Below, one piece after another: positions 471 to 57,190 of a stretch of DNA of 64,000 nt. Position 1 is the stretch's first letter; each line of letters opens with the position of its first letter. The stretch is from Lachnospiraceae bacterium M18-1. GTDB lineage: Bacteria; Bacillota; Clostridia; Lachnospirales; Lachnospiraceae. Made by a program: the position numbers and the translations under genes. The DNA lies in contig KE159611.1 of the NCBI GenBank assembly GCA_000403295.2, positions 681,645-745,644 on the forward strand, in the 5' to 3' direction. The notes under the pieces are model-generated. The model searched no databases. It had not been told where the DNA came from and was given only the letters and a program-made list of their open reading frames with translations.

Positions 471-659
471 ATTCACAGCCATATAAAAATCAACAGACAG
501 ATTCGTCAAGCACAGCTTGTAAGAAGCTGTTTGATGATTTTTATATGACTGGAATCAGTCACTTCACCCACATAAGCAAAAAATCAAGATGCGAAGCATC
601 GGCAGACGGCTTTGCCGGCTGTTTTTGCGCATGTGTGTGAAGCGGCTGTGAATAGTAAC
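471..659. repeat. Palindromic element with GTTACTATTCACAGCC-type end
   Basis: The region begins ATTCACAGCC (471-480) and ends GGCTGTGAATAGTAAC (644-659), which are inverted repeats. The expected outer GTTACT of the left arm is missing because the IS ends there. Inside are further palindromes, including one with arms atataaaaatc and gatttttatat and one with a GCCGGC core near 610-622. No coding potential is seen. Bases 660-775 hold nothing recognisable. Confidence 0.6.
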
Positions 660-13285: not shown

Positions 13286-13300
13286 GTTACAGTTCACGGC
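13286..13300. repeat. Left half of palindrome split by IS4 copy 2
   Basis: GTTACAGTTCACGGC abuts the left IS end; ACTGTGAATAGTAAC (15091-15105) abuts the right end. Joined, they form a palindrome very like the uninterrupted one at 41119-41147. The IS is therefore placed at its centre. Confidence 0.6.
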
Positions 13301-13320
13301 CAATGTCATTTACTTAAGGA

Positions 13321-13355
13321 AGATTTCTGTACTATACGCAGAAATCTTCTTTTTT
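13321..13355 (+). terminator. Hairpin with T-run inside IS left end
   Basis: AGATTTCTG and CAGAAATCT pair across a short loop and are followed by a run of T. It lies just inside the left IS end, where many insertion sequences stop transcription entering from the host. Confidence 0.6.
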
Positions 13356-13507
13356 ACCCCTAACTCAAATCTTTATAATCTTTTTCTTTTTTTAAAAAAA
13401 CTATTGACAAACCTTTCAAAATGTGCGGCTTTTTTCTGATAAAATCAGAAAAAAGCCTATTAATCAGGAAGAATTGTTCACTTTTCAACTGATTAAGGAG
13501 GTACATT

Positions 13508-14824
13508 ATGAAATATTCATCTTCTGTAAAAGCAATCTTATTCGCTTCCATCCATGAACTCGCTGACAACCCTCATCTTTATGCCAAACATCCGGGCAGG
13601 GATTTCACTCGGAATAGAAAATTGGGCTTTCAGGATTTCCTCATTCTCTTTCTCACCATGGAGGCTGAGTGCATTAAAGAAGAACTTTACCATTACTTTG
13701 ATCGTGACATTTCTACTCCCTCTAACGCTGCTTTTTGCAAACAGAGGAGCAAGCTCCGACAGGATGCCCTCAGGAATCTCCTCTTTGCTTTTAACAGAAA
13801 GCTCAAAAAGAACCTTTACAACGGAAAATACCAGTTCATTGCCTGTGATGGCTCCGGGTGTGATATTTTTAGAAACCCGAACGATCCGGATACTTTTTTT
13901 GGACCTAACGGGAAATCCACTAGGGGATTCAACCAGATCCATATCAATGCTTTTTATTCGATTCTTGATCGAAGATTTACTGACCTTGTCATACAGCCTG
14001 GACGAAAACGTAATGAATTTGCCGCTTTCTGCCATATGGTCGATTCCGCAGGCTCGGCCGGCCCTAAAACAGTTTATTTTGCCGACATGGGCTATGCCTC
14101 CTATAATAGCTATGCCCATGTGATCGAAAACGGACAATACTTTCTCATCCGATGTGACCCCAAAAAAACGAAGGGAATCCTTGGCTATCCACTTGACGAT
14201 GTCAGGGAACTGGATTGCCGCGTTGATCGTATTCTCAGCAGATCGCAGGCAAAACGCAAACGGCTCCAGCCTGACAGAGCCGATGATTACAGACATGTCT
14301 GTAAAAATGTCGCTATGGATTTCCTTACGGACAAGCAAACCGAATACGAGATCTCACTCCGGGTCGTTCGGTTTGAAATCTCAGAAGGATGTTTTGAAAA
14401 TATCATTACAAACCTTCCGGATCTTGAGTTTGATATCGAAGATTTTAAAGATCTCTACCACCTTCGATGGAATGAGGAAAATTCCTTTCGGGATTTAAAA
14501 TATCCTCTCTGTCTCAAAGCGTTCCATTCGAAAAAATATGACTATATCGTTCAGGAAGTCTGGGCAAGGGCAATCCTCCATAACTTTTCTTCTGAGATCA
14601 TCCAGAACGTAGAGATTGAGAACCGGAATACCAAATATAGATATCAGGCGAATTTTTCAGAAGGGTTTAAAATCTGCAGAAATTTTTTGCGGATCCATAA
14701 CAGGAAAAAGATCATGGATGTGGAAGGTCTGATCGCCCAAAATATTGAGCCGATCAGACCGGGCAGAACCTTCACACGCCAGCAAAGATTTAAACTGCCA
14801 ATCAGCTTTTGCTATCGTAATTAA
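13508..14824 (+). CDS. IS4-family DDE transposase
   Basis: This 438-residue transposase has catalytic Asp114 (ACDGSG) and Asp193 (FADMG) and the diagnostic IS4 signature Y-(2)-R-(3)-E-(6)-K at Tyr317, Arg320, Glu324 and Lys331. The residue count matches that motif exactly, so the enzyme should be active. The start follows AAGGAGG. It carries out excision and insertion of the IS and could mobilise the interval between the two IS copies. Confidence 0.95.
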   Translation: MKYSSSVKAILFASIHELADNPHLYAKHPGRDFTRNRKLGFQDFLILFLTMEAECIKEELYHYFDRDISTPSNAAFCKQRSKLRQDALRNLLFAFNRKLKKNLYNGKYQFIACDGSGCDIFRNPNDPDTFFGPNGKSTRGFNQIHINAFYSILDRRFTDLVIQPGRKRNEFAAFCHMVDSAGSAGPKTVYFADMGYASYNSYAHVIENGQYFLIRCDPKKTKGILGYPLDDVRELDCRVDRILSRSQAKRKRLQPDRADDYRHVCKNVAMDFLTDKQTEYEISLRVVRFEISEGCFENIITNLPDLEFDIEDFKDLYHLRWNEENSFRDLKYPLCLKAFHSKKYDYIVQEVWARAILHNFSSEIIQNVEIENRNTKYRYQANFSEGFKICRNFLRIHNRKKIMDVEGLIAQNIEPIRPGRTFTRQQRFKLPISFCYRN

Positions 14825-15121
14825 ACGAAAAGGAAAGCTAACATCTTAAGTATACGACTTCTCCAGGCGGATTCAACCATTTTTTCAAAAATGGGCACAT
14901 TCGTCTTATCGTCATGCCTTCCCATCAAATTCAATCCGTAAGAATCTGTTTTTAAATCCCCTATGTTCCATTTTTCATCTTGTCTGACAGCATTTTCTCC
15001 TAATTTTTTCTCGGATTTCCCTTAAGTTAACTGTTGTTTTGGCACCTCCTATGCATTTAATAGTAATTTTCCTTTAAGTTAATGACATTGACTGTGAATA
15101 GTAACCAGGAAGGATGATACC

Positions 15122-41118: not shown

Positions 41119-41147
41119 TTTACAGTTCACGGCCTGTGAACTGTAAC
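41119..41147. repeat. Short GTTAC-type palindrome
   Basis: TTACAGTTCACGGC is followed directly by its near-perfect complement CTGTGAACTGTAA. It begins right after the response-regulator stop and could act as a terminator. It is the uninterrupted counterpart of the palindrome split by the IS at 13301-15090. Confidence 0.65.
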
Positions 41148-52410: not shown

Positions 52411-52824
52411 TCAGAACTCTTCATCTTCTGCCTGCTCTGATCTCTCATTGCAGTAAACCGGCGCAGCCTCCGGACTGTGTACCAGTTCCTTTATCGCGCC
52501 GTCAATGTCGTCGCCTTCTCCGACTGTCAGAGACAGCTGGACCAGCAGCGGCAGATTCATTCCCGCGATCAGATAAAATCGTTCCCTGGACAGGTAATTC
52601 ATAAACTCGTTGTTTACACTCCCGCCCAGAATATCTGTAACTGCGATGACTGTATCCTCTGCCGGAATAGAATCCATCTCACTGCATACCATGCCCTTGA
52701 TATCATTGTTGTCCACAAACGCAGTGATAATATGTATATTCTCTATCTCTCCCGCGATCAGCTTCACACTTTCGTACATTCCTTTTGCGAGTGTCCCGTG
52801 AGAAGCCAGAATAAAATGTATCAT
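52411..52824 (-). CDS. PTS mannose-family IIA component
   Basis: This 137-residue protein has ILASHGTLAKGMYES with phospho-acceptor His9 and DILGGSVNNEF typical of EIIA-Man. It takes phosphate from HPr. The start overlaps the FrlC-like gene stop by 4 bp. Confidence 0.94.
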   Translation of the reverse strand: MIHFILASHGTLAKGMYESVKLIAGEIENIHIITAFVDNNDIKGMVCSEMDSIPAEDTVIAVTDILGGSVNNEFMNYLSRERFYLIAGMNLPLLVQLSLTVGEGDDIDGAIKELVHSPEAAPVYCNERSEQAEDEEF

Positions 52825-53654
52825 ATGCCCTTTTCCCCCTGATTCTTCATAAATAATTCCATTGTTTTCCGATCTGCCAGATATGGCTCTTCATAATACC
52901 TGTCATTTACGCTTTCCAGAGAAAGCAGTCCTTCATAGCCATTCCGGCTGAATGCCTCCAGGTCTTCTTTCATGCTCCGTTTTCCGTCTCCCCAGGCCAG
53001 ATGTCCCACCGGGGCCCCGTCGACAAAATGACAATGTATGACGTCCTTTTCAAATACATTAAAATAATCGTCTATGGATTCTCCCATCCTTGCCATTGCC
53101 CCCAGATCCAGGCAGATCTTCAGGCTGTCATTTCCAACCAGCTGCTTCAGCGCTTTCAATTCTGCAGCCGTATTCGCGATCTTCGACTCATCGGGCTGAA
53201 GCGCTTCCATGACAAGCAGCATCTGATTTTGGGCTGCATATTCGCTTACCCTGGAAAGCATTTCCACACTCCTTTTTGTTGCTTCTTCCACGGGTTCGCT
53301 GTAATACGCCCATCCCGGTGTGATCAGCACCTTATCAGCCCCTGCGGCTTTTGCAGCGTCGATGATATTTCTGTAATACGCATACACCCGTTCTCTTGCA
53401 TTCTTTCCTTTTACCGCAACATTATTGGGCTTTGGATTCGTCTGCTCCGGACAGATACATCTGATTTTCACCTGATGGGACTCTGCAAGCTGTCTCAGCT
53501 TGACCGGATCCTCGTACTGCTGATAATCCACAAAAAAATGATGGGGCGAAGTCCACAATTCTGCATTTACAAACCCGGCTTTTTGAATCTCCTCAAAAAA
53601 CACAACCAGCTCATAAAATCTGTAATGCCCATTCATCGCACATAACTGATACAT
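52821..53654 (-). CDS. TIM-barrel sugar epimerase/isomerase, FrlC-like
   Basis: This 277-residue protein belongs to the AP-endonuclease-2/sugar epimerase family. It has metal-ligand segments such as LLVMEALQPDESKIANT, CLDLGAMARMGE, CHFVDGAPVGHLAWGDG and LLSLESVNDRYYEEP. In the frl context it may interconvert fructoselysine and psicoselysine as FrlC does. The start at 53654 follows AGGAGGG. It heads the PTS operon, behind a strong promoter. Confidence 0.82.
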   Translation of the reverse strand: MYQLCAMNGHYRFYELVVFFEEIQKAGFVNAELWTSPHHFFVDYQQYEDPVKLRQLAESHQVKIRCICPEQTNPKPNNVAVKGKNARERVYAYYRNIIDAAKAAGADKVLITPGWAYYSEPVEEATKRSVEMLSRVSEYAAQNQMLLVMEALQPDESKIANTAAELKALKQLVGNDSLKICLDLGAMARMGESIDDYFNVFEKDVIHCHFVDGAPVGHLAWGDGKRSMKEDLEAFSRNGYEGLLSLESVNDRYYEEPYLADRKTMELFMKNQGEKGI

Positions 53655-53670
53655 CTTTTCCCTCCTTTCC

Positions 53671-53732
53671 GTGGTTCTATTACTAATCCACTTATTTGCA
53701 TCAAATATACCAGATTGTTTTTTATATTTCAA
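53671..53732 (-). promoter_or_regulatory. Promoter and operator of frlC-PTS operon
   Basis: On the minus strand TTGAAA (53727-53732) and TATATT (53704-53709) are exactly 17 bp apart. Downstream lie ACTAATCCACTT (53682-53693) and GTGGTTC (53671-53677), the same spaced pair as at the frlB promoter. The sites overlap the transcribed start, as expected for repression. Confidence 0.7.
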
Positions 53733-53978
53733 CCATATTTATTTTTTTCTACATTTTTAACATTTTATATAGTCAAATTTTGTTAAATTTAACTTATATA
53801 TTTTTTATCCCATGTACTATTTATACAAAAATTTATTTATTTTTTAGTGGTTTTTAATATAATCCAATTTGTAATTATATTAAACCAATATATGTGTTCA
53901 TCATCGTTTTTTACCGGAAGCATATACCAGGATGTCCGACGAAAGCAAAGGATACTTTGGAATTTTTGAAGAAGAATT

Positions 53979-54125
53979 GTTACTATTCACGGTGCCTTGC
54001 ACCCTGCTGCAAGGCATCCGGCCAGTAAAATAGCAGTTGCATGCATCCAGCCCCTCGCCGTCAGGCGACTTTTCAATGGGCTGGATGCGTTACAGTTCGC
54101 GGCCGGTTGGGCCGTGAACTGTAAC
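53979..54125. mobile_element. 147-bp MITE-like element, copy 1
   Basis: The element starts GTTACTATTCACGG and ends CCGTGAACTGTAAC, and is flanked by the direct repeat GAAGAATT (53971-53978 and 54126-54133). Inside are two stems, one with TGCACCCTGCTGCA and one with CCAGCCC...GGGCTGG. A second 147-bp copy lies inverted at 56634. It encodes no protein. The region 53733-53970 is AT-rich and holds no gene. Confidence 0.88.
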
Positions 54126-54169
54126 GAAGAATTGGAAATAACAGATCAGAAAAGCCGGCACAAATACAT

Positions 54170-54226
54170 TGCAGGCGGCAATTCACAGTCTGATCGACCG
54201 TGAATTGCCGCCTGCAGCATTTTTTG
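54170..54226. terminator. Strong 17-bp hairpin with T-run
   Basis: TGCAGGCGGCAATTCAC (54170-54186) pairs with GTGAATTGCCGCCTGCA (54200-54216) and is followed on the plus strand by GCATTTTTT. No plus-strand gene precedes it, so it may end transcription from the MITE side or be another palindromic repeat. Confidence 0.6.
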
Positions 54227-54260
54227 GCTCATGGGCAGACAGCCTTTTTTTAATTTTTTA

Positions 54261-54593
54261 CTATGCAATAATCCTTTTTTCTAATTCGCCAATAAAATAT
54301 TGATAGCTGGGAGAACTATTTTCATGCAAATGTAAACATTTCCCTATTTTATCAGCCCATTCACATTTTGCATTTCCAATCTCTGAATACTTTCCAACAG
54401 CCCTTTTTTTCAGTTTTAAATATCCCTGCGGATAGACGATATCCGCCAGTGTGCTTTTTCCATTCCCGCTTGGCCCAATGACCGCAACCAGATTACCAAG
54501 AGCCTTCGCATTCTGATTTGTTCTTGTCTTTCCGAGTACAATATCTTTTAACGCCCCATAATTTTGAATCTTTATTCCTTCTATCTTTCCCAT
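54261..54593 (-). pseudogene. AAA-ATPase remnant with internal deletion
   Basis: The 110-codon frame begins like an AAA15/RloA-type ATPase with KIEGIKIQNYGALKDI and Walker A AVIGPSGNGKST. After TLADIV it jumps to an unrelated C-terminal tail, GNAKCEWADKIGKCL and SPSYQYFIGELEKR. The Walker B, sensor and most of the core are absent. It looks like a deletion that fused the start of an ATPase to the end of a downstream partner gene, possibly a former defence pair. Confidence 0.6.
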
Positions 54594-54683
54594 GTTTCTC
54601 TCCGATCTCAAAACATTTATACCGAGCGTCAGATAAATCCGCCGCTCAGTATAATAAGATACACACCGCAGCATGTGTACACC

Positions 54684-55409
54684 TTATACCTGTGCTCCAC
54701 GCTGTTTGCGCCGTTCCGCAAGCTGGGCCGCAAATATGTTCTGGGTGATCTTGTCCTGGTCCTCTTCGTTCAATTCTAAGAACCTGCATCCATATTCATA
54801 CTTTGAGTCTTCTCTCTCGAAGATACGCAGCACCTCGCAGAACATCACGGACATCGGCCTGTCCTCCAGCAATTTCACTTGCAGAAGGAATTTGTCCCCT
54901 TCCTGGTAGATCTCCTCTGAGAGGATCCGGGCGCCCCCGACACTGATATTCAGCATTTTACAGTCATGCTCCCTGGCCGAAAATCCACCGAAGGTAGTAA
55001 CCGCCGCATCCAGATTTGTTTCCAGACGGAAAAAAGCGCGGTCATTTCCGATCCGGGCAACCGTTAATTCCTCAACCTTCCATGTATGTTTTTCCTCGAG
55101 CGTGATGACTCCCTCCATATAAACTGCTTTTCTTTCATGGTCGCTGTATCCGCGGATCCTGACATGGAGCGGTTCCTCCTCCTCTTTCTCCTCGGACAGC
55201 TCTGATTCCGAATACTGCTCCAGTCTTGCCTGATCCTTCCACAGGTTCGTAAGCTTTGCGACAAAAAGCAAGGTTCCGTCAAAAGTCGTGACCTCTACGC
55301 GCATTCCGGAATAGGCCGTAAGCTCTGCCAGCTCGTTTTCTTCCGCCTTTTTTTCCGTTTCCTGCGGCTGCTCCTTGCCGCCCTTTCCAAATAGATCAAA
55401 TAGCCGCAT
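54684..55409 (-). CDS. PilZ-domain c-di-GMP receptor (YcgR-like)
   Basis: This 241-residue protein has an N-terminal YcgR-like beta domain (about 30-125) and a C-terminal PilZ domain. Binding motifs are RAFFR and NISVGG, both matching the RxxxR and N/DxSxxG pattern. It should bind c-di-GMP and change motility, adhesion or secretion. It lies 23 bp after a diguanylate cyclase, so maker and receptor are co-transcribed. Confidence 0.85.
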   Translation of the reverse strand: MRLFDLFGKGGKEQPQETEKKAEENELAELTAYSGMRVEVTTFDGTLLFVAKLTNLWKDQARLEQYSESELSEEKEEEEPLHVRIRGYSDHERKAVYMEGVITLEEKHTWKVEELTVARIGNDRAFFRLETNLDAAVTTFGGFSAREHDCKMLNISVGGARILSEEIYQEGDKFLLQVKLLEDRPMSVMFCEVLRIFEREDSKYEYGCRFLELNEEDQDKITQNIFAAQLAERRKQRGAQV

Positions 55410-55432
55410 CTTCCTACCTCCTGACTATAGCA

Positions 55433-56350
55433 TCACTTTTCATACAGCTGTTTCATCTTCTCGTCAGCCCATATCACCCTGTTGCGTCCATTCTTTTTTG
55501 CGTCATACAGCATTGTATCCGCAATTTTCAGATAAGAGGCGTAAGAACTTCCCCACTGCGGAATGACGGTCACGCCTCCGATGCTGACCGTGACCCATTG
55601 GGATACGGAAGGATCATGAGGAATATGTAGATTCTCTATTTCCTGCCGGATTTTTTTCAGATGCGCAAATGCTTTGTCTGAACTGTCGCCCATAAGGATC
55701 CCTACAAATTCTTCTCCCCCATAGCGCGCCAGAAAATCCGTACTGCGGTTTAAATGGGCAGACGCTTTTCTTGCTACCGCGGAAATGACCTTATCTCCGG
55801 CCGGATGGCCGAATGTGTCGTTATATACTTTGAAACGGTCAATGTCAAACATACAGATCGTAAACGGAACCTGCAGACGTACCGCTTCGCTCCATTTCGT
55901 AAGGCAGTAGTTCTCATACTGCCGCCTGTTGGCTATTCCGGTCAGCTGGTCGGTCATGGATTGGCGCTCAATCTGCCGCCGATATTGATACAGCTTGACG
56001 TGTGTATTGACCCTCGCCTTAATGATCAATGGGTGAAACGGCTTTGTAACATAGTCCACCGCCCCCAGGATCAGCCCGTACTGCTCATTCTCTATATCAG
56101 TAAGACTGGTGATCAGGATGACCGGAACATTTTGGGTAATAATCTCCTCCTGCAGTTTTTTCAGCAGCGTAAAACCATCCATCCCCGGCATCACTACGTC
56201 CAGCAGGATCAGGGAATAACTTTCGGCGCTGGCGAGACTGAGTCCCTCTTCCGCCGTATGCGCGGTAGTCACCTCATACTCATCCTCCAGAATGGATTTT
56301 AACTGCGCTGCCTGTAAGATACTATCATCAACGATCAAAATTTTTTCCAT
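55433..56350 (-). CDS. Response regulator diguanylate cyclase (PleD/WspR-like)
   Basis: This 305-residue protein has a receiver domain with Asp51 (LILLDVVMPGMDGF) and a GGDEF domain with ARYGGEEFVG (211-215). RSTD (202-205) sits five residues before the active site and forms an I-site. Phosphorylation should drive dimerisation and c-di-GMP synthesis, limited by product. No kinase is adjacent. A long leader with a terminator precedes it, suggesting attenuation. Confidence 0.93.
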   Translation of the reverse strand: MEKILIVDDSILQAAQLKSILEDEYEVTTAHTAEEGLSLASAESYSLILLDVVMPGMDGFTLLKKLQEEIITQNVPVILITSLTDIENEQYGLILGAVDYVTKPFHPLIIKARVNTHVKLYQYRRQIERQSMTDQLTGIANRRQYENYCLTKWSEAVRLQVPFTICMFDIDRFKVYNDTFGHPAGDKVISAVARKASAHLNRSTDFLARYGGEEFVGILMGDSSDKAFAHLKKIRQEIENLHIPHDPSVSQWVTVSIGGVTVIPQWGSSYASYLKIADTMLYDAKKNGRNRVIWADEKMKQLYEK

Positions 56351-56409
56351 AAAGATTCTTTCCTTCCTTATAACTTTTTGTAAGCAAATGTCTCTTTACT
56401 GTACATGTC

Positions 56410-56437
56410 AAAAAAACCCCTCCGCACTCAGAAGGGC
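56410..56437 (-). terminator. Leader terminator upstream of diguanylate cyclase
   Basis: On the minus strand CCCTTC pairs with GAGGGG around TGAGTGCG, followed by seven T. It lies about 60 bp before the start codon but after the promoter at 56555-56583, so transcription must read through it. Confidence 0.7.
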
Positions 56438-56548
56438 ATATTTTGATTTTTCAATTCTTCTTCCCTTTGCTGTCCCGAAACCGATGATAGAATACCGCCT
56501 CATCTAGATGGACAGCCAAAAAAATGCTTCTGTATCATGCCAATTTCT
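56438..56548 (-). ncRNA. Candidate structured leader RNA (attenuator)
   Basis: Between the promoter and the terminator the minus-strand transcript can form a stem from GGCTGTCC with GGGACAGC, enclosing the perfect palindrome CATCTAGATG. A 12-codon frame (MIQKHFFGCPSR) also fits inside. It does not match a riboswitch class I can name. A c-di-GMP or other ligand sensor is possible, as is a small RNA. Confidence 0.4.
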
Positions 56549-56554
56549 GTTGAA

Positions 56555-56583
56555 ATTATACACTGTTCTAGTGTCGTTGACAA
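56555..56583 (-). promoter_or_regulatory. Promoter of diguanylate cyclase-PilZ operon
   Basis: On the minus strand TTGTCA (56578-56583) and TATAAT (56555-56560) are separated by exactly 17 bp. It lies about 205 bp upstream of the start codon. Confidence 0.7.
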
Positions 56584-56633
56584 TACTTATTCAGTAATAT
56601 TTTCCATCGTTTCTGTAATATTGGGAAAACAAT

Positions 56634-56780
56634 TTTACTGTTCACACCCTTTGGGTGCTCCAGTAACAGTATCCAGCCCATTTTAAGTCGCCTTCGGCGA
56701 GGGGCTGGATATTATGGCAAATGTTACTTCATTGGCCGGACGCCGTGCAGCAGGGTGCACGACGCCGTGTGAACTGTAAC
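56634..56780. mobile_element. 147-bp MITE-like element, copy 2 (inverted)
   Basis: It starts TTTACTGTTCACAC, ends GTGTGAACTGTAAC, and is flanked by the direct repeat AAAACAAT (56626-56633 and 56781-56788). In reverse it matches copy 1 along most of its length, including TGCACCCTGCTGCA, GGCCA, ATCCAGCCCCTCGCCG and AATGGGCTGGAT. Length is identical to copy 1. No coding capacity. Confidence 0.88.
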
Positions 56781-56809
56781 AAAACAATATCTCTATTACT
56801 ATTTTCCAC

Positions 56810-56838: not shown

Positions 56839-56861
56839 TTATTAAAATTGAACACAACAGC

Positions 56862-57190
56862 TATGACAGGAAATAGTAGGTACTGCGGATCATCAGAGAG
56901 AAGGCGGCTGGTGCGAGCCTTTGTGAAAGAGATACTGAACCGGTCCTGGAGCTGTGGCCTGAACGAACCGCGTTTTAGTAGGCGTCACCGGGATTCTCCC
57001 GTTACAGAGATACAGTATCGGCATTTCTGTGCCCGTACTGATGAGCGCGGAATTAAGGAACTGCGGAAAAATACAGAAACCATCCTTCGCAATCTGAACC
57101 ATTCTACAGTTCTTCATCCGAATTTAGGTGGTACCGCGGACGCGTGATCGTCCGCCCTAAGCTGATCATTTTCAGCTTGGGGCTTTTTTT
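56862..57190 (+). promoter_or_regulatory. T-box leader of proS
   Basis: The leader contains AGAGAG near the base of Stem I, the T-box core TTTAGGTGGTACCGCGG (57123-57139) and a terminator with arms GCCCTAAGCTGA and TCAGCTTGGGGC followed by seven T (to 57190). It should bind uncharged tRNA-Pro and allow readthrough into proS. The specifier codon could not be fixed with confidence by eye. Confidence 0.92.

Follow-up and report, generated by a model that had tools for sequence, protein, structure and literature searches.

Here we describe two short noncoding elements, E1 and E2, in a 64,000-nucleotide stretch of the genome of Lachnospiraceae bacterium M18-1 (contig KE159611.1, positions 681,645 to 745,644; hereafter the window), which are nonautonomous transposons, i.e., miniature inverted-repeat transposable elements (MITEs), of a large family, and which are very probably moved in trans by the transposases of a divergent IS66-like clade of insertion sequences (ISs). 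A first-pass annotation, made from the DNA letters alone, had called them MITE-like on the basis of two elements of exactly 147 bp in opposite orientation, with common terminal inverted repeats (GTTAC..TTCAC), an internal CCAGCCC/GGGCTGG stem and perfect 8-bp direct repeats at their borders. Our analysis bears out each of these points, the coordinates included:

53971..53978, left target-site duplication (TSD) of E1, GAAGAATT
53979..54125, + strand, E1, 147-bp MITE; left end GTTACTATTCAC, right end (reverse complement) GTTACAGTTCAC; scores 142.8 bits against the covariance model R1, of which E1 is itself a member
53980..54028, + strand, left hairpin of E1: end-closed stem, inner stem and loop CACCCTGCTG (from the fold and stem covariation)
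54043..54088, + strand, central hairpin of E1, GCATCCAGCCC/GGGCTGGATGC with an inner TCGCC/GGCGA stem
54089..54125, + strand, right hairpin of E1, the right terminal repeat paired with an inner copy of the end
54126..54133, right TSD of E1, GAAGAATT
56626..56633, TSD of E2, AAAACAAT
56634..56780, - strand, E2, 147-bp MITE of an apparent second subfamily
56668..56713, - strand, central hairpin of E2 (from the fold)
56781..56788, TSD of E2, AAAACAAT

The ends of E2 read GTTACAGTTCAC and TTTACTGTTCAC, one outer base being T rather than G. For fixed ends and the local base composition, both exact 8-mers would arise by chance with a probability of about 3e-10. Neither element holds an open reading frame (ORF) of 80 or more amino acids, and folding against 200 shuffles gives z-scores of -8.7 and -8.5 for the plus and minus strands of E1, and of -4.6 and -6.1 for those of E2. 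E1 differs from a copy in genome G006 at 2 of 147 bases, so that the transposition was fairly described as recent, and E2 is 96% identical across 162 bases to a copy in the Schaedlerella arabinosiphila genome (G001); the two look like members of different subfamilies.

A search of a species-level genome collection with a central-hairpin pattern returned at least 120 matching stretches. Among the matches listed, 101 lie in Lachnospiraceae, Clostridia or kin genera (including Schaedlerella, Mediterraneibacter, Blautia, Faecalicatena and Robinsoniella); the other 19 are in unrelated organisms, and those of them that were inspected lack such ends and are regarded as chance matches. In the loci, 83 copies stand between 8-bp duplications (one mismatch allowed), 64 of which are exact. 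These 83 copies comprise 76 distinct sequences, from which 27 representatives more than 8% apart were combined with E1 and E2 in an alignment of 29 sequences (A3) that underlies R1. Searching with this model (E<=0.001, at most 10 candidates scored per genome) recovered the element in 47 of 299 genomes from the family to which S. arabinosiphila belongs, which we take to be Lachnospiraceae. Forty copies sampled from these positive genomes had the duplication (at most one mismatch) in 30 cases, a generous count in that the ends were free to shift by up to 6 bases toward a TSD; with fixed ends, 117 end pairs in the loci showed an exact 8-bp TSD, versus 6 in five shifted controls summed. There are 111 distinct sites with an exact duplication, 87 of them 130-165 bp long, and the element sizes cluster at 132-133, 136, 142-149 and 159 bp. 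The target duplications are rich in A+T. The end motif of the family has the short form GTAACTGTTCAG, and in the S. arabinosiphila genome its 12-bp version has 101+96 matches versus 0+1 with the reversed pattern. E1 had no match at E 0.1 in the phage and plasmid collections, and the core pattern had none in the viral contigs.

Short forms of 35, 40, 50, 55 and 61 bp with little beyond the two ends (L128, L129, L132; L308 1942-1991; L310 492-552; L315 10715-10754) also have exact 8-bp duplications; hence, insertion seems to require nothing beyond the ends, and the three hairpins are dispensable for this step. Some MITEs stand in tandem pairs spaced by exactly 8 bp (L257 301-598; G296, contig C4, 214163-214434), as if the second copy had inserted at the target duplication of the first. 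In another genome (G003), contigs C7, C26 and C30 start within such elements, 76-77 bases in from the right end, and these repeats seem to break short-read assemblies. Together, noncoding sequence, IS-type ends, TSDs and many dispersed copies, with element-free sites for related copies only, mark the elements as MITEs, known as a kind but new as a family, whose three-hairpin body is unusual.

The first-pass annotation had envisaged a larger element with the same ends encoding a transposase, and such elements were found in relatives, both in S. arabinosiphila and in other species. The S. arabinosiphila genome has nine copies with a weak IS66 match, of which seven are intact, bearing GTTACTATTCACAGT at both ends and an exact 8-bp TSD (four of 2458 bp and three of 2176 bp). 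The remaining two (L157 and L159) have lost their ends, and in both an end of the IS4-type element discussed below adjoins the transposase frame. Each unit has, downstream of a short ORF, a reading frame of 590 or 530 codons that matches DDE_Tnp_IS66; the two transposases are 49% identical. The PF03050 matches of the partner elements (4e-15, 1.3e-10 and 1e-14) are above the curated cut-off; canonical IS66 copies in the same genome score 7e-92 to 2e-80. A two-row profile made of these two proteins detected homologs (E<=0.001) in 27 of the 299 genomes, many of the matches being fragmentary. Twelve further loci chosen from among the profile matches comprise eight with two ends, three with one end (the contig stops on the other side in two) and one with a weak end only. 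The two-ended relatives span 1824-2358 bp and have GTTAC- or GTAAC-type ends: all start with GTTAC except L331, which has GTAAC/GTATC. An exact TSD is present in two of the seven testable ones (L324 and L332, the latter with a broken transposase), L335 starting at a contig end.

An 8-bp TSD is typical of IS66, and these partner elements, of 1.8-2.5 kb across the clade, share with that family the DDE_Tnp_IS66 domain, the 8-bp duplications and ends starting with GT, though not with GTAA. Classic IS66 elements are described as encoding TnpA and TnpB beside the DDE transposase and as having ends such as GTAAGCG and GTAACCG (PMC12888890, available text). Unlike these, the partner elements have one short ORF and the transposase, and their ends read GTTAC or GTAAC followed by TTCAC or TTCAG. 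For the partner elements we use the name IS66-like.

The link between the MITEs and this clade lies in the ends. The ends of E1 and E2 match those of the partner IS at 16, 18, 16 and 17 of 20 bases, whereas a match of at least 16 of 20 was reached by 2 of 20,000 random 20-mers from the window. A canonical IS66 element of S. arabinosiphila begins GTAAGCAAG (one end only, deduced from the point where three copies begin to agree), and this end matches those of E1 and E2 at 3-8 of 20 bases. We infer that ends of roughly 12-20 bp are recognised by the transposase, which would join them to a staggered 8-bp cut whatever the sequence between them. The enzyme had been thought to be encoded outside the window, and this is upheld: the two-row profile, run against 1,403 six-frame stretches with at least 25 residues, found no partner transposase at E<=10, and the DDE transposase that the window does encode (13508-14824) belongs to the IS4-type element with other ends. 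A 1992-bp unit of S. arabinosiphila with an exact 8-bp TSD (L121, 770-2761) was considered as an autonomous partner and rejected, as its content is a PDDEXK_2 (Rpn-like) nuclease gene with a MITE copy on either side; this single case may represent a composite transposon assembled from MITEs.

Several observations weigh against the transposition of the MITEs by this clade. The 47 MITE-positive and 27 transposase-positive genomes overlap in 7 cases versus 4.2 expected (p 0.11). Twelve MITE-bearing genomes scanned with the profile at E<=1 gave no match in eight, matches only at E 0.05-0.18 in two and clear ones in two, and nine of 15 MITE-bearing genomes, including the nearly one-contig G278, lack a PF03050 match. 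In genome G268, two copies (L265 and L276) differ by 1 base and have exact TSDs, by which an enzyme must have been recently active there; yet no partner was found in the G268 DNA that was searched or fetched, and 13 stretches of G268 and G158, whose ORFs were listed but not profile-scanned, held no TSD-bearing unit longer than 133 bp. Further, the MITEs and the partner IS have only their ends in common, and five of the seven testable two-ended IS relatives are without a TSD. Finally, no empty site was recovered for E1 or E2 themselves, their flanks failing to align in G006, G009 and S. arabinosiphila. Either the helpers come and go faster than the MITEs, or they are lost from draft assemblies, or a further enzyme exists. 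It is on account of the weak co-occurrence and the MITE-bearing genomes without a helper that we regard movement by the IS66-like clade as very probable and no more than that.

The earlier expectation that empty sites in relatives would show one copy of the 8-bp repeat stood in part, for related copies. Four of 15 fetched loci of G006 held a copy with a recognisable duplication, and the joined flanks of three of these match element-free DNA in other species. The clearest is L202, which matches G009 at 93% with a single clean 8-mer, TATCTGGC, where the filled copy has TATCTGGA/TATCTGGC. The joined flanks of L200 and L218 match S. arabinosiphila at 90% and 81%, with differences at the 8-mer that leave an exact single copy unproved there, and at the site of L218 G009 has about 40 other extra bases. 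The fourth copy is also filled at the same place in G009 (L204/L211), and no clear paralogous empty site was seen among the fetched loci.

The aligned members have three hairpins in common: a left hairpin with a loop that is mostly CA(C/T)...CTG; a central one, the inner stem of which often resembles ATCGCCGAAGGCGAT; and a right one, in which the terminal repeat pairs with an inner copy of the end. In A3, 91.6% of the cells are paired, versus 82.0% when shuffled, and 92 cells are changed on both sides, versus 33.5; sliding the partners lowers the pairing to 30-40%. Two of five covariation measures are near the shuffles, namely doubly changed pairs (14 versus 11.4) and pair types (32 versus 32.6), and the members of A3 were retrieved with a pattern in which much of the central hairpin is prescribed, later ones with a model that rewards pairing; these points, too, detract from the case, and the left stem has only 76.1% of its cells paired. 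In a larger alignment of 77 rows (the last 8 of 85 model matches, with E > 1e-7, being excluded), which is fitted to the structure so that its values lean upward, and whose counts ignore relatedness, the outer central stem has Watson-Crick pairs in 663 of its 683 cells, and at seven of its nine positions all four such pairs occur.

The first-pass annotation had further suggested that the transcript may fold, and one could go on to view the hairpins as a functional RNA, i.e., a regulatory RNA or terminator riding on the transposon. The folding energy is indeed strong and the stems covary, and G-U pairs outnumber A-C pairs in both the right (51 versus 6) and the left hairpin (32 versus 16), which favours one strand and could mean that one strand matters there. 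However, in RNA maintained by selection G-U intermediates are as a rule frequent, and the central hairpin, with the tightest pairing, has 6 G-U and 7 A-C among 1,133 cells. This equal rarity points to a constraint at the DNA level or to arm-to-arm correction, and suggests for the central hairpin a role as DNA rather than RNA. Moreover, two positions facing the terminal repeat account for 37 of the 51 G-U pairs of the right hairpin, and the alignment of the left stem is poorer. On the elements, no match to an Rfam family attains the gathering score: in the whole window only a T-box (56854-57162) does so, and a permissive scan around E1 gave three matches, all far below it. A simple scan of E1 and E2 revealed no sigma-70-like promoter and one weak 5-pair terminator-like stem, in E1. 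A functional RNA is thus unlikely, and of the earlier suggestion the capacity to fold stands, while the pairs of the central hairpin point to DNA. We consider that the hairpins are probably kept by aiding the persistence or spread of the element, most likely as DNA hairpins or cruciforms that would assist end pairing or replication-linked excision, or else because they would insulate neighbouring genes.

Alternatively, the MITEs might be REPIN-like, i.e., spread by a resident, single-copy domesticated transposase and not by a mobile IS, which would explain how they persist without the IS; they do occur in genomes lacking a detectable IS66-like gene. RAYT tyrosine transposases are not known to make 8-bp TSDs, and the MITEs have both such duplications and ends that match a DDE IS clade. 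REPINs are described as dispersed, palindromic, hairpin-forming mini-elements with compensatory changes, to which the palindromic MITEs with their compensatory stem changes are comparable, but they are reported there to associate with RAYTs (PMC3116915, available text). REPINs are also described as forming long-lived populations (PMC8049555, available text). Unlike the REPIN/RAYT systems, the present family combines 8-bp TSDs, a DDE-type partner, three hairpins and a length of 130-160 bp, and we hold a REPIN-like mode of spread to be improbable.

A third candidate for the helper is the transposase of the IS4-type element in the window, which lies between two copies of the same end motif:

13286..13300, + strand, interrupted IS66-type end to the left of the IS4-type element, GTTACAGTTCACGGC
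13301..15090, + strand, IS4-type element of 1790 bp with both ends, CAATGTCATTTACTTAAGG; lies between two MITE/IS66-type ends, with no target duplication
13508..14824, + strand, IS4-type transposase ORF, 438 aa, DDE_Tnp_1, IS4 family
15091..15105, - strand, interrupted IS66-type end to the right of the IS4-type element, GTTACTATTCACAGT (reverse complement)
471..659, - strand, second MITE type, 189 of 195 bp, with the same ends as the family; six end bases replaced by an IS4-type end

Despite this position, it was rejected as the helper: the element has ends of its own, CAATGTCATTTACTTAAGG; nonautonomous 189-bp forms with IS4-type ends are flanked by duplications of 9-10 bp (5 of 5); and the neighbouring GTTAC motifs are where it inserts. 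That it moves the MITEs is accordingly very improbable. The IS4-type ends have the form CAATGTCATTNANTTAA, and in relatives they also occur on the 189-bp nonautonomous forms. Among 25 distinct flanks of IS4-type ends, 22 share a single register within the IS66-type terminal repeat, in one sense or the other; the 22 are the sum of two classes (13 and 9) assigned by script with loose patterns, L020 6235 being placed in the first and by eye belonging to the second. The exceptions are L020 7809, L157 2811 and L162 161, and with insertions merged by hand about 15 of 18 are in register. The flanks come from the window or from loci fetched for their MITE content, which enriches such neighbours but not the exact register. 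The five complete 189-bp units are as follows, and in each of them the 9-10-bp duplication corresponds to repeat positions 7-16:

L003, 3461-3649
L020, 6235-6423
L075, 59-247
L085, 125-313
L090, 7670-7858

The window copy and L070 (1907 bp) have two such end flanks and no TSD, which recombination between copies would explain. At 470/471 of the window, the IS4-type end of another copy replaces six bases of a 195-bp MITE, the remainder of which (471-659) is 98.4% identical to a 195-bp element of S. arabinosiphila. IS4-type insertion thus explains the broken ends in the window. As for the 195-bp type itself, the S. arabinosiphila copy (L123 181-375) has GTTACTATTCAC ends and an 8-bp TSD. A precedent for one transposon choosing the ends of another is IS231A, which reportedly inserts into the ends of Tn4430. 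A subgroup of IS4 is described as having ends of the form -AATR..WTW and 10-13-bp duplications, with some members strongly insertion-specific (De Palmenaer et al., PMC2266710, available text), and the ends and duplication length of the present element fit it. ISPpu9 is described as sitting in repetitive extragenic palindromic (REP) sequences (PMC8450116, available text); in contrast to such REP-targeting ISs, the present element targets a single register in terminal repeats that belong to a different transposon clade. As for a chance or ancestral fixed repeat in place of transposition, the copy shared by two relatives at the same place (L204/L211) would fit, but the TSD statistics, the many different sites and the element-free sites make this hardly credible.

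MITEs moved by an IS are not new as a kind: MITEPsy1 of Pseudomonas syringae is described as a 100-nt element with a 4-nt TSD and ISPsy2 as its likely helper (PMC3189936). It resembles the present elements in being short and noncoding, with a TSD and terminal repeats common with an IS; the available text of that account mentions neither an IS66-derived MITE nor a three-hairpin body. Our literature search found no description of this MITE family, none joining MITEs, IS66 and Lachnospiraceae, and none of transposable elements in Schaedlerella. The novelty is in the family and the two-tier system, not in the kind of element. Tentatively, and as a possibility we would not rate as the likelier outcome, we propose a Lachnospiraceae-wide set of DDE-moved mini-elements whose hairpins are maintained as DNA, by selection or arm-to-arm correction, which in many genomes outlive their helper IS, and which offer a dedicated single-register landing site to an IS4-type element: a two-tier ecology that would be the DDE counterpart of REPINs. 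The family occurs in about one-sixth of the sampled genomes (47 of 299) and is without an Rfam model at threshold. Its covarying three-hairpin body, with few wobble pairs in the central hairpin, makes selection of bacterial MITEs as DNA structures testable, and the single-register landing of the IS4-type element shows, in nature, how strictly one transposon can choose its target within another, unrelated one. In practical terms, MITE copies lie at contig ends in a short-read assembly and could pass for terminators or regulatory RNAs.

A few further features of the window touch on these elements:

41119..41147, palindrome of 29 bp made of two abutting ends, TTTACAGTTCAC..GTGAACTGTAAC

This palindrome is not among the window end pairs having a TSD, and relatives carry comparable palindromes of 35-40 bp with TSDs. 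E1 is flanked by two minus-strand ORFs, 52821-53732 and 54261-54674. About 45 bp after it, and outside it, is a near-perfect 21-bp inverted repeat (54170-54216, GCAGGCGGCAATTCAC..), which resembles a terminator when read on the minus strand. The neighbours of E2 are, on one side, the start of a response-regulator/GGDEF-like gene (55433-56350, minus strand) and, on the other, 74 bp past the end of E2, the T-box leader at 56854-57162, which precedes a prolyl-tRNA synthetase-like (proS-like) gene, the names of these neighbouring genes coming from a reading of their translations.

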